Shown here in pieces: positions 18,874-35,852 of a stretch of DNA of 40,292 bases (the stretch's first letter is position 1; every line of letters begins with the position of its first letter). The notes below the pieces were generated by a model that was not told where the DNA came from, searched no databases, and saw only the letters and a program-made list of their open reading frames with translations. This DNA is from an uncultured Bacilli bacterium. Its GTDB lineage: Bacteria > Bacillota_I > Bacilli_A > RF39 > UBA660. The position numbers and the translations under genes were made by a program. The stretch lies in contig CALVSR010000005.1 in the NCBI GenBank assembly GCA_944359075.1, positions 1 through 40,292 of the forward strand, read 5' to 3'.

Positions 18874-19109
18874 ATTACCACCCTAAATTTATTATATCAC
18901 TCATTTATGTATTTTTAAAACACTTTTTACATAGAAAAAGTATTTATATTCTATAATTTTTTGGCAATTTCCATCTTCAAACTTTAATTCTTGCTTTTCA
19001 GGCATTCATTACCATTCTATTTAACTATATTTATATATCTGCTATAGTAAATCGGCAAATCGCTAATTAAGTGTAATTGCAAATATTACACTTAGAGATT
19101 CTATATTTT
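18874..19109. promoter_or_regulatory. Intergenic region with SDR promoter
   Basis: A minus-strand extended -10, TGATATAAT (hexamer 18896-18891), lies before the dehydrogenase gene. I see no gene or other clear structure in the remaining 200 bases. Confidence 0.45.
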
Positions 19110-19568
19110 TTATGAACTCTTTTTTCTCGAATAAACTTTCCTTTTTGTAATTTTGACTACTTCATTAGGTAATTCAAAACTATTATAGAATTTAGAAATG
19201 TTTTCATTTTGTTGTAGGAAGGTTATTCTACTATGTAAGATTCTCTTTGGATCATAAATGACAGCACTACTTTTTAATTCACGAGCAGCTTTTTCTTTCT
19301 TTTCATAGTTTATAGATCCCCTATAATAACATATTGGTTTAGTGCTAACTTGAATTTTCATTTCATTGATTAATACTTGATTTCTAATTACGGGTATTTC
19401 CTCTTGATTATTATATAATATTACGACTTCTATTCTTTGGAGACCTCCTATTTGATAAGGACATAAGTAAACTCCTAAAATTCTGTTACCATATTTTTCA
19501 ATATAAGGAATTGTTAGTTTTGATATAGAATCCGATACAATTTCTTTTACTGGTTTTTTCTTTCTCAT
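19110..19568 (-). CDS. Hypothetical basic protein, 152 aa
   Basis: I cannot name this protein. It is Lys/Arg-rich, with alternating hydrophobic strands (ILGVYLCPY, RIEVVILYN) and a SAVIYDPKRIL segment, a pattern that recalls nucleotidyltransferase-fold proteins but without a clear GSxxxGxxxxxD active site. A good GAGGTGATA precedes the ATG and a TATAAT (19627-19622) lies upstream, directly after the VirD4 operon terminator. It appears to be a single-gene unit. Confidence 0.6.
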   Translation of the reverse strand: MRKKKPVKEIVSDSISKLTIPYIEKYGNRILGVYLCPYQIGGLQRIEVVILYNNQEEIPVIRNQVLINEMKIQVSTKPICYYRGSINYEKKEKAARELKSSAVIYDPKRILHSRITFLQQNENISKFYNSFELPNEVVKITKRKVYSRKKSS

Positions 19569-19631
19569 ATTATCACCTCGTAATTTTTACACTCTTCCTC
19601 AAAATCCGAGTAATTTATCTTATTATAACAG

Positions 19632-19651
19632 AAAAACTACCATTTGGTAGT
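19632..19651 (-). terminator. Terminator of the VirD4-like operon
   Basis: ACTACCA/TGGTAGT with a two-base loop, followed by TTTTTC on the minus strand. The stem and flanks closely match the rplQ terminator at 22329-22353. Confidence 0.75.
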
Positions 19652-19773
19652 CTAATATTATTTTTCTTTCACTTTTTCCATAGAATAGAACTATGTATCT
19701 TAATTTCTATATTATTATACTCACTAATTAATCTATCCTTTTCTATTAATTATTCTCTGTTCATATATATTGA

Positions 19774-19992
19774 TTATATGCTATTCTTTATACTAGGATG
19801 TAGTCCTAACTTTTTTACTAAATAATTCCCTTCTTTTTGCTTTTGTAGTTCTAGATTTAACTTTAACATCTCAAGCATATCCATTGCTTTATTGATGACT
19901 AACTGTTTAAAATCTTCATTATTTAAATTATCATAAGCACTTTCTTCATCTAGTAAAATATATTTACCGTTGGTTTCAACATATACTTTCAT
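19774..19992 (-). CDS. Small hypothetical acidic protein of the VirD4-like operon
   Basis: A 72-aa protein with an N-terminal strand-turn-strand (KVYVETNGKYILLDE) and a helical, partly coiled-coil-like remainder (MLEMLKLNLELQKQKEG). GGGGAA lies seven bases before the ATG, which supports translation. It is third after the VirD4-like gene and 20017-20505, with only 24 bases between, so it belongs to that operon. Function unknown. Confidence 0.6.
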   Translation of the reverse strand: MKVYVETNGKYILLDEESAYDNLNNEDFKQLVINKAMDMLEMLKLNLELQKQKEGNYLVKKLGLHPSIKNSI

Positions 19993-20016
19993 CTTTCTTC
20001 CCCACTTTTTTATCTA

Positions 20017-20505
20017 CTATTTTACTTCATAATATTCTTTAAAATCGCTATATTTTATAGTAATCAAATCATATGGAACCTGCTCTTTGTTGCATCTATA
20101 TTTCATAGAATGCTTGTCTTTCATGAAATCTTCATTATTTTTAAAAACATATATATATCCTTGCATATCATCCTTTATATTTACATTTTCCAAAGTCATA
20201 ACGGGATAAATCTTTTGATTTTTTATAATAATTCGATATTTTAATCCCACACTATTTTTCTTAATTGTATCTTTAAAGGCATAAGCAGTTGCTCTAACGA
20301 ATTCTGGAAATATAAAAATAGGTTCGTTTGAATTTTCCTTTCCTATATCAACGATATCCATTTTCTCATTACTTCCATAAAATAAATATTTTGGATGATG
20401 AATATCCTGTTCCATATATTCTTTTAATTTTTCTTTTATTGATAAGTTATACTTTCTTTCTATTAATATTTTTCTATTTGCATTATTTAGTCCATTTAAT
20501 TTCAC
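20017..20505 (-). CDS. Hypothetical protein of the VirD4-like operon, 162 aa
   Basis: Begins at a GTG inside the 3' end of the VirD4-like gene (23-base overlap), so translation is probably coupled. After a helical basic start it has strands in the order YLFYGSNEKMDIV, EPIFIFPEFVRATAYAF, GLKYRIIIK, and GYIYVFKNNEDFM. The YGS then aromatic-rich AYAF spacing resembles small ADP-ribosyltransferase-like proteins that start with HGS/YGS, but the resemblance is by eye only. A shorter version could begin at the ATG at 20415, though without a ribosome site. Function unknown. Confidence 0.6.
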   Translation of the reverse strand: MKLNGLNNANRKILIERKYNLSIKEKLKEYMEQDIHHPKYLFYGSNEKMDIVDIGKENSNEPIFIFPEFVRATAYAFKDTIKKNSVGLKYRIIIKNQKIYPVMTLENVNIKDDMQGYIYVFKNNEDFMKDKHSMKYRCNKEQVPYDLITIKYSDFKEYYEVK

Positions 20506-21766
20506 TATCAGATTTTAATTTAGTTCGGATTGGTAATACTCTTGGCATTAATATAATTGCTTCAAACATATCTAGTAATTTTAATTCTTCTGGTGTAATT
20601 AATGGTATATTATCTTTTTTTCCACATCTTTTGCTGATTTCTTCTAGTGTTTCTATATCATTAGCTAGCAGATAGATTATATTTCCAAAAGATATTTTGA
20701 TAAATTCTGTTGTTTCATCACCATATACATTCCTTAATTCTAACAAACTCATCACAAATATAGTAAATTTAATATTAATACTTCTAGCATTATTTATTAC
20801 ATTAATAAAATCTTTGATTCTATTTATTTTACCAAATTCATTCACTATAATATTTACTCTTTTTTCTTGATTTCCATAAATATCTACCATGTAATAGATT
20901 TGATTTACTATTAATGGTATTAATGCGTTTGCGTATGATACATTCCCACCTATTATAAATATCGCTGTTTTTACTTTCGCAATTTTTGTAATATCAAAAT
21001 CAGTTTTTGACATCATCTCTGATAAATTCTCTCTACTTATATATAATTTTAATTTCTGAGAAAATACAGATATGATACTGCCTCTCGTTTCAATCGGTGC
21101 TTGCAATATCCCTACAAGATTTGCATATATAGCCGGATTACCTTTAATATCGGATAATATTCTTTCTAATGTTTCCTTATTGATATTAATTTCTGTGGAT
21201 AAATCAAAGATTCGGTTTAATGTTATATTTGGCTGTTCTTCTTTTTCAAACAAATAAAATGCTAATCCTGTAAAATAATTAATTGCTGAGTTTTCCCAAA
21301 AAGGATCACTATTATTTGTTTTTCTTTCACTGAATAAATAGTATGCAATATTCTCAACTAATTCCATCGCCTTGTCTTTATTACCAACTTTAAACTGTTG
21401 ATAGGCAGGTTTTAAGGGATTATAACTATTACCGTTACTAGGATTTTCTAAATTTAATATGACTATATTATAATTATTATTTTTTAAATCCTCCTTTAAT
21501 GATTCATAAATTTCACCTTTTGTATCGTTAATTACTAGAGATTCACTCGCTCTAATAGCTAATCTTGATTGTGGTAATAAAATAGATTGTACTTTCCCAC
21601 TCCCTGTTGTTCCTATCACTAATGAATGCTGTTCACTATCATCGATATATAAACTATTATCATCGTATGCCATAGGAATTCCTGATTTCTTTACTTCTGT
21701 ATTGGTATTTACTTTTGTTAGTTTGGCTTTTAACTCCTCTTCTGTTAACCATCTTAAATAATTCAT
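20483..21766 (-). CDS. VirD4/TraG-like ATPase homologue with altered nucleotide-binding motifs
   Basis: A 427-aa protein of the VirD4/TraG coupling-protein family: GTTGSGK (52-58), the INDTKGEIYE segment (79-88), NPLKPAY (116-122), the PFWENSAINYFTGLAF region (155-170) and a VNEFGK block (308-313). Two key positions differ: Val59 replaces Ser/Thr of the Walker A, and Asn309 replaces the Walker B Asp before Glu310. The two N-terminal membrane helices of conjugative VirD4 are absent, and no relaxase or secretion genes are near. Strong AAGGAGG. It is first in a three-gene operon, divergent from an AraC-type regulator. Probably a domesticated or regulatory relative. Confidence 0.8.
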   Translation of the reverse strand: MNYLRWLTEEELKAKLTKVNTNTEVKKSGIPMAYDDNSLYIDDSEQHSLVIGTTGSGKVQSILLPQSRLAIRASESLVINDTKGEIYESLKEDLKNNNYNIVILNLENPSNGNSYNPLKPAYQQFKVGNKDKAMELVENIAYYLFSERKTNNSDPFWENSAINYFTGLAFYLFEKEEQPNITLNRIFDLSTEININKETLERILSDIKGNPAIYANLVGILQAPIETRGSIISVFSQKLKLYISRENLSEMMSKTDFDITKIAKVKTAIFIIGGNVSYANALIPLIVNQIYYMVDIYGNQEKRVNIIVNEFGKINRIKDFINVINNARSINIKFTIFVMSLLELRNVYGDETTEFIKISFGNIIYLLANDIETLEEISKRCGKKDNIPLITPEELKLLDMFEAIILMPRVLPIRTKLKSDSEIKWTK

Positions 21767-21787
21767 ACTTTTTCCTCCTTCGCATTT

Positions 21788-21844
21788 AATATATCATCTT
21801 ATTTTGTTATGAATTTAAACAAAAATGGCTTTTTATGATATAAT
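21788..21844. promoter_or_regulatory. Divergent promoters of the VirD4-like operon and the AraC-type gene
   Basis: The minus strand has TGATATATT (-10 hexamer 21793-21788); the plus strand has the extended -10 TGATATAAT (hexamer 21839-21844). The two -10 boxes are about 45 bases apart, so one bound regulator could affect both. Confidence 0.5.
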
Positions 21845-21863
21845 GCTTGTAGAGGGATGTTAT

Positions 21864-22328
21864 ATGTTTTCTAATGAACTAGTTTGCGATATTTTAGAAT
21901 ATATTCATGAAAACCTAAACAAAGAAATCACAATCGATGAATTATCTTTCCTTTTTCATTATAATAAAACATATATTATGAAACGATTTAAAAAAGAAAT
22001 TGGGTTAACTATCCATAATTATATTAATAGCATTAGAATATATAATAGTTTGCTAGATTTTCAAGCAGACAATTATATATTATCTATTGCTTTAAAGCAT
22101 GGTTTTAATTCATTGGAGTACTTTTCTGAAACTTTTAAAAATATTGTAGGTGTTAGTCCCAGTATTTATAGAAAATTTCTTTCCATAAACAGTAATATTT
22201 CTAATGAAGAGATTACTTTAATTTGTAGTTCTATTGGCCAACTTCAAAGTTTAAATAATAATGCAATTAAATATCTAAATAATAGAAAGCCTAAGGAAAT
22301 GCCTGTTAAAAAATTTATTTTTAAATAG
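21864..22328 (+). CDS. AraC-family HTH regulator (DNA-binding domain protein)
   Basis: A 154-aa protein. Residues about 5-105 form the double helix-turn-helix of AraC/XylS regulators: ITIDELSFLFHYNKTYIMKRFKK is the first unit, and ILSIALKHGFNSLEYFSETFK followed by GVSPSIYRK the second. A short C-terminal tail of unknown role replaces the usual separate sensory domain. ATG 21864 is preceded by GAGGGATG; the predicted transcript start near 21851 leaves a very short leader. Divergent orientation suggests it controls the VirD4-like operon. Confidence 0.82.
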   Translation: MFSNELVCDILEYIHENLNKEITIDELSFLFHYNKTYIMKRFKKEIGLTIHNYINSIRIYNSLLDFQADNYILSIALKHGFNSLEYFSETFKNIVGVSPSIYRKFLSINSNISNEEITLICSSIGQLQSLNNNAIKYLNNRKPKEMPVKKFIFK

Positions 22329-22353
22329 AAAAAAACTACCATTTTTTGGTAGT
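22329..22353 (-). terminator. Terminator of the ribosomal/alpha operon after rplQ
   Basis: ACTACCA/TGGTAGT with a five-base loop, followed by seven T on the minus strand, ten bases after the rplQ stop. It also covers the 3' end of the convergent AraC-type gene. Confidence 0.8.
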
Positions 22354-22362
22354 CTCCTATTA

Positions 22363-35690: not shown

Positions 35691-35852
35691 TTCGAATCCT
35701 CCCTTCGCCTATATCTAGTATAGACTTGCTCCGTGTAAAAACCTGAGTTTACTCAGTTAAAAATTAACAACTTAACCGGGTGTATCAGCAACCTCACACA
35801 TCTAAGCAGCCACACAGTTAAGATTATAACACAAGTAATATAAGGAAATCAA
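35691..35852 (-). promoter_or_regulatory. Promoter and structured leader of the S10-spc-alpha operon
   Basis: On the minus strand TTGATT (35852-35847), an 18-base spacer and TATAAT (35828-35823) form the promoter. The leader of about 125 bases can close a long-range stem CTTAAC/GTTAAG (about 35818 with 35770) around a GC-richer region, then a terminator-like hairpin (35756-35737). This layout fits an S10-type ribosomal leader regulated by attenuation. Confidence 0.65.
35737..35756 (-). terminator. Attenuator hairpin in the rpsJ leader
   Basis: CTGAGTAAACTCAG forms a six-pair stem, followed by GTTTTT on the minus strand, 47 bases before the rpsJ start. It is an intrinsic-terminator shape inside a leader. 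Confidence 0.65.

Follow-up and report, generated by a model that had tools for sequence, protein, structure and literature searches.

A short, soluble relative of VirD4 coupling proteins and a divergently oriented gene for an AraC-type regulator, with one common box between them, constitute a two-gene cassette that has wandered as a joint unit among chromosomal sites in a family of uncultured Bacilli. The representative described here (Table 1) resides in a 40,292-nt stretch of contig C5 (the window) within a 1.34-Mb draft genome. The strict conservation of this arrangement suggests that it is an undescribed module, the possible target of which is the type IV secretion system (T4SS) resident in the same chromosomes. 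Coupling proteins determine the export cargo of a T4SS. If the proposal is true, a regulated, mobile, soluble VirD4 would represent a novel means of controlling or sabotaging a chromosomal T4SS, and the predicted operator would offer a single handle on the switching of the cassette.

Table 1. Positions of the cassette, its predicted control elements and adjoining features in the window
Feature	Position	Strand	Remarks
Left copy of terminator-like hairpin (ACTACCATTTGGTAGT)	19636..19651		matches the single rplQ-flanking hairpin of sister genome G008
72-aa ORF	19774..19992	-	related small proteins end around LGxHxxM
162-aa ORF, GTG start	20017..20505	-	overlaps 3′ end of virD4-like gene; optional passenger
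Short soluble VirD4-like gene	20483..21766	-	427 aa; NBD and all-alpha domain; no TMD; no C-terminal tail
Predicted -10 (TATATT) of virD4-like gene	21788..21793	-	21 bp downstream of box
Conserved intergenic box AAAGCCATTTTTGTTTAA, predicted AraC operator	21815..21832	-	sole match with 0-1 mismatch in the genome
Predicted -10 (TATAAT) of AraC-type gene	21839..21844	+	5 bp from box
AraC-type, DNA-binding-domain-only regulator	21864..22328	+	154 aa from conserved start; 27 orthologues aligned
Right copy of same hairpin (ACTACCATTTTTTGGTAGT)	22335..22353		adjoins rplQ

The VirD4-like protein matches the Pfam families T4SS-DNA_transf (PF02534, 2e-39), TrwB_AAD_bind (8e-17) and TraG-D_C (PF12696, 6e-13), and it scores 186.3 bits (9e-55) against NF045973, the VirD4-like conjugal transfer protein of the CD1115 family, which does not reach the curated cut-off of 250 bits. 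The N-terminal transmembrane domain that is present in most type IV coupling proteins (T4CPs) is absent. The maximum hydropathy over 19 residues is 1.76, versus 3.12 for the full-length VirD4 of the same genome, and no membrane segment appears in the AlphaFold model (pLDDT 91.9). Alignment places the N-terminus at a conserved Trp that comes after the membrane helices of full-length VirD4, and the C-terminus before the long tail of the latter. In Foldseek comparisons, the model matches chains of TrwB-deltaN70 with TM scores of 0.68-0.76 and also the Cag-beta ATPase; it resembles the HerA and DndH ATPases too, but scores less well with them than with TrwB. The protein therefore displays both the T4SS-DNA_transf/TraG-D_C homology and the TrwB-like fold by which T4CPs are recognized, and the model indicates that it is the whole soluble body of a coupling protein. 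Thus, the original prediction of a VirD4/TraG relative without membrane helices is borne out by the domain matches, the hydropathy and the modeled structure, and its gene coordinates and its reading of the Walker motifs agree with the ORFs and the sequence.

The intact Walker A and B motifs that are a further hallmark of T4CPs are missing from the window copy, in which Walker A reads GTTGSGKV (GSGKV core), with Val, and Walker B reads VNIIVNEF (VNEF core), with Asn. The original prediction had suggested, in view of these changes, that the protein could bind rather than pump. However, comparison with the 26 other short VirD4s reveals both substitutions in the window copy only, and a shared motif change was therefore rejected as a family trait. 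The P-loop of the relatives conforms almost throughout to GxTGSGK[TS], and their Walker B to [LIV]D[ED]F; those that clearly deviate are G268 (P-loop GEDDLQKE, Walker B DNF), G206 (P-loop AGTGSGKT, Walker B DNF) and G353 (Walker B LEDF, arginine finger absent). The window copy departs from the other short forms at 6 of the 78 positions that they conserve, two of which lie in the ATP center, and it keeps the arginine finger, the position of which is retained in 24/27 short VirD4s. Because canonical motifs prevail among the 26 relatives, the family is, as judged by its sequences, built as an ATPase, and binding without pumping does not hold as a family property. What does stand of that suggestion is that three other copies have also lost catalytic residues, such that independent loss has taken place about four times, each in an otherwise open gene.

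The partnership with the AraC-type gene recurs throughout the family. A search of 386 family genomes with the AraC-type protein returned 34 matches, and every match above 160 bits adjoins a short VirD4. A VirD4 alignment search of the same genomes separates short forms (at least 562 bits, in frames of 436-550 aa) from full-length forms (at most 509 bits, in frames of at least about 650 aa) by a clean score gap. All 24 short forms among the matches listed are in AraC-positive genomes, and a 25th, the degenerate copy of G268, is cut by a contig end. The AraC-first and VirD4-first searches recover the same genomes, which amount to about 6.5% of the 386. With two further genomes, G005 and G010, the collection comprises 27 cassettes, and a short VirD4 with a divergent AraC-type gene exists in 27/27, which confirms the predicted tie between the two. 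Given this recurrence in 27 genomes, with dN/dS ratios of about 0.1-0.3 for both the AraC-type and the virD4-like gene, the pair is beyond chance. When the AraC search was widened to the class, all matches came from this one family.

The remaining two ORFs, which the original prediction had included in a four-gene arrangement, are optional. Relatives of the 162-aa ORF occur elsewhere and not beside short VirD4, and relatives of the 72-aa ORF reside directly or closely downstream of short VirD4 in 4/27 cassettes. The four-gene operon was thus rejected as the unit, and the sequences indicate that what is conserved is two genes plus a predicted operator. The 162-aa protein has no Pfam, NCBIfam or PADLOC match, and its model (pLDDT 79) has no PDB match, leaving a by-eye suspicion of an ADP-ribosyltransferase-like protein unsupported. 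No membrane helix is found in the ORFs neighboring the VirD4-like gene. In G010 (L034 2028-2303 and 4211-4438), two related ORFs of 91 and 75 aa lie on either side of the pair, and both end in a W-x-S-P-x-D stretch.

In keeping with the prediction that the VirD4-like gene stands outside larger conjugative elements, the 27 copies occur alone between ordinary chromosomal genes, which supports the notion of a domesticated soluble coupling-protein relative. No T4SS or relaxase genes were recognized next to any of the 27 cassettes, and no integrase, relaxase or conjugation genes, which would characterize an integrative conjugative or mobilizable element, were recognized within them. Plasmid and phage sequences yielded only distant (under 60%) VirD4s, and one IMG/VR viral contig carries the AraC-VirD4 pair; scanning plasmids and phages with a 27-row VirD4 profile revealed nothing beyond that contig. 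There, the pair resides at the contig end (L120 7418-8951), after a peptidase/holin-like region that resembles a lysis region, and represents either a phage moron or host flank.

The AraC-type protein displays the two helix-turn-helix units of the AraC DNA-binding domain (HTH_AraC PF00165, 1e-16; PF12833, 2e-12), lacks a ligand domain and carries a conserved C-terminal tail that ends in I-F-K in most of the 27 aligned orthologues. This tail is a candidate docking peptide. From the first ATG, at 21825, the ORF (21825-22328, + strand) would encode 167 aa, and the family alignment indicates that the true start is probably at 21864.

A near-invariant box with the consensus AAAAGYCRYTWTTGTTTAA occupies the gap between the two genes in 27/27 cassettes (which in L079 contains the annotated AraC start). 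A strict form of the pattern is matched by 25/27 gaps, versus a mean of 0.004 for shuffled sequences. From the end of the box to the virD4 start codon, the distance is 46-52 nt in 26/27 cassettes, the exception, L082, reflecting a start chosen too early. On the virD4 side, 22 of the 26 cassettes scored have a -10-like hexamer 20-21 bp downstream of the box; on the AraC side, a TATAAT is mostly 5 or 14-15 bp away. The predicted operator holds a fixed position relative to the predicted divergent promoters in 27/27 cassettes. No good -35 element is apparent for the virD4-like gene, and the box occupies its place. MarA and SoxS, of the AraC/XylS family, likewise consist of the two-HTH domain alone, and they act at a box of about 19 bp beside the -35 element. 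By analogy with such activators, the position of the box would suit a protein that activates virD4 and is also seated on the promoter of the AraC-type gene itself. The cassette protein differs from MarA and SoxS in its C-terminal tail, often ending in IFK, in having one visible target and in its VirD4-like ATPase partner. The frames are intact, and the earlier expectation that the pair is probably expressed is supported.

The tail and the missing ligand domain could conceivably signify that the short VirD4 senses a ligand or DNA and, as a partner, controls the AraC-type protein, with gene regulation as the output, and the two proteins do co-diverge (r 0.76 between their divergences). However, the genome of the window holds one box with at most one mismatch, that of the cassette itself, and additional matches in other genomes are at about control level, those inspected being mostly within genes. 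A wider AraC regulon was rejected on these grounds, and with no regulon visible beyond the cassette, a switch of this kind seems very unlikely. For the same reason, the AraC-type protein seems, from the genome sequences, to serve its own cassette alone.

The ancestry of the short VirD4s links them to a secretion system. They form one clade (support 100/100), the sister of which, in a tree with an outgroup, is the resident full-length VirD4 of the family (98/97), and the short and resident forms together stand apart from the other VirD4s of the class. Most genomes of the family encode the resident VirD4 at a chromosomal T4SS locus that also has genes for a pilin, a VirB6/TrbL-like protein, VirB4 and a cell-wall hydrolase, and VirD4-type matches occur in 339/386 family genomes. 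In the genome of the window, this locus, with full-length VirD4, is on contig C35, and the PF03432 relaxase was not found in that genome. The original assertion of no relaxase or secretion apparatus is therefore accurate for the window locus and does not extend to the whole genome as regards the T4SS. In each of the four T4SS loci that were read (L039, which is that of contig C35, L040, L041 and L032), VirB4 is split into an ORF of about 180-220 aa and one of about 596 aa, and no relaxase was seen. Full-length VirD4 accompanies the cassette in 24/25 cassette genomes of the family sample, none having been found in G353, and it is also present in about 87% of cassette-free family genomes (Fisher p 0.34). 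Given this high background of full-length VirD4, its co-occurrence with the cassette is uninformative and no proof of a link. The resident chromosomal T4SS is nonetheless the most likely context of the cassette.

A different context would be cellular defense, in which the short VirD4 is an independent cytosolic pump, a hexamer that is induced via the AraC-type protein and acts on incoming phage or plasmid DNA in the manner of HerA or DndH. The patchy distribution noted above, horizontal movement, fast evolution and confinement to a single small islet are consistent with such a module, as are the lower-scoring resemblance to the HerA and DndH folds and the copy at the end of a viral contig. On the other hand, the cassettes have no conserved nuclease or other effector as a partner, they do not lie within defense islands, and PADLOC provides only weak single-gene matches to the VirD4-like protein (mad8 1e-7, HerA 1e-3), with no system partner. 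Its nearest relatives are resident T4SS VirD4s rather than HerA, and a defense pump appears rather unlikely.

The neighbors of the cassettes, as named from sequence reading, are rplQ, ychF, rny, gltX, an smpB/tmRNA pair and further ordinary genes, and the flanks are unrelated except between same-site orthologues. In the window, the inserted stretch with all four ORFs is bounded by the two copies of the rplQ-side hairpin, and the same site in the sister genome G008 is cassette-free and has one such hairpin. The interval from an SDR gene to rplQ (18874-22362) is a variable site in the genus, the gene content of which differs among sister genomes. Within it, a 152-aa ORF without family matches (19110-19568) is 84% identical in G008, where its homologue is followed, at the site of the cassette, by a 301-aa ORF of similar look. 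Grouping of same-genus copies as one clade is rejected (p-AU 0.0003 and 0.00004), and these phylogenies thus indicate that the cassette has moved horizontally among chromosomal sites. The dN/dS ratios place both genes under purifying selection, yet they evolve fast: at shared sites, cassette genes are 60-68% identical, versus 74-89% for neighboring genes.

These features bear on the idea that the cassette is a decaying relic of an integrative conjugative element. Such an origin would accord with the VirD4 ancestry and with the damaged catalytic motifs in the window copy and three others. However, the two genes, their orientation and the operator are constant in 27/27 cassettes, and no further conjugation gene is left beside any copy. 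Purifying selection and invariant architecture already disfavor a relic, which is highly improbable.

The mobility of the pair might also be that of a satellite, a minimal hitcher that supplies its own substrate adaptor and is exported by a resident or visiting T4SS. A precedent is CloDF13 MobB, through which a mobilizable element brings along a coupling protein of its own (PMC7431656). The cassette occupies many different chromosomal sites, and in G261 (L075 4733-7334) 26-bp direct repeats of the tmRNA 3′ end enclose no clear genes other than the AraC-VirD4 pair, in the style of an integrated element; the stretch resembles a 2.6-kb islet without an integrase. Nevertheless, a relaxase, oriT or integrase was recognized in no copy, and the copies share no boundary sequence, which makes a satellite distinctly unlikely. 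Common insertion boundaries or repeats were rejected in general, the exceptions being the tmRNA repeats of G261 and the duplicated hairpin of the window. A candidate structured RNA downstream of the G261 cassette is weak (z -2) and not common to the others, and a relaxase-bearing element in G073, which includes a recombinase, was dismissed because about 9 kb, with further genes, separates it from the cassette.

Proteins of both kinds, soluble relatives of VirD4 and regulators of the AraC type, are known; their free-standing, mobile pairing is the novel part. Compared with NF045973 and the resident full-length VirD4, with which homology extends across the whole NBD and all-alpha domain, the short form lacks the transmembrane domain and the long C-terminal tail, resides outside the T4SS operon and is always accompanied by an AraC-type gene. 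T4CPs without a transmembrane domain are known, TraJ/TraI of pIP501 being likewise soluble coupling-protein relatives, but T4CPs of this type work within a transfer operon, some with a small membrane protein, and the cassette has neither (PMC7434980). Chromosomal T4SSs of Patescibacteria, which are of a monoderm conjugation type and mostly without relaxase, parallel the resident T4SS; they belong to another phylum, and the portion of that account considered here describes no AraC-linked soluble VirD4 (PMC12102498). In the literature searched, chiefly open access, there is no description of a free-standing, operator-linked, mobile VirD4-AraC pair, in support of the view that the arrangement is undescribed.

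The tentatively favored interpretation, held at somewhat less than even confidence, is that the cassette provides an AraC-controlled, mobile, membrane-free paralogue of the coupling protein that interferes with or redirects what is presumably its target, the resident T4SS. The AraC-type protein would bind the box and switch on the short VirD4, as suggested by the box at the -35 place where no good -35 is apparent, and would also control its own gene. Association of the short VirD4 with the resident VirD4, with the substrates of the latter or with the T4SS could then block or redirect that system. The short form retains the predicted fold of a coupling protein, as well as the P-loop lysine and, in 24/27 copies, the arginine-finger position; catalytic residues could be lost, as in the window copy, since a spoiler need not hydrolyze ATP. 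The intact ATPase motifs of most copies, needless for a pure decoy, argue against the spoiler reading. Somewhat more doubtful is the specific proposal of a mobile immunity or fertility-inhibition module, in which an AraC-switched cytosolic coupling-protein paralogue poisons or reprograms the host T4SS, hydrolysis is dispensable and pseudo-ATPases are recurrent.

Interference through coupling proteins has parallels. Deletion of the transmembrane domain usually abolishes transfer, and a chimeric TrwB coupling protein is dominant-negative (PMC7431656). The small plasmid proteins PifC and Osa inhibit conjugation via coupling proteins and embody the same proposed logic, in which a coupling protein is the target of an accessory gene that is small and mobile; they are unrelated in sequence, and the proposed inhibitor of the cassette is instead a coupling-protein paralogue itself (PMC5696584). 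Elsewhere in the window, positions 35705-35812 match the S10-Clostridia ribosomal protein leader (RF03136), barely over the gathering score.
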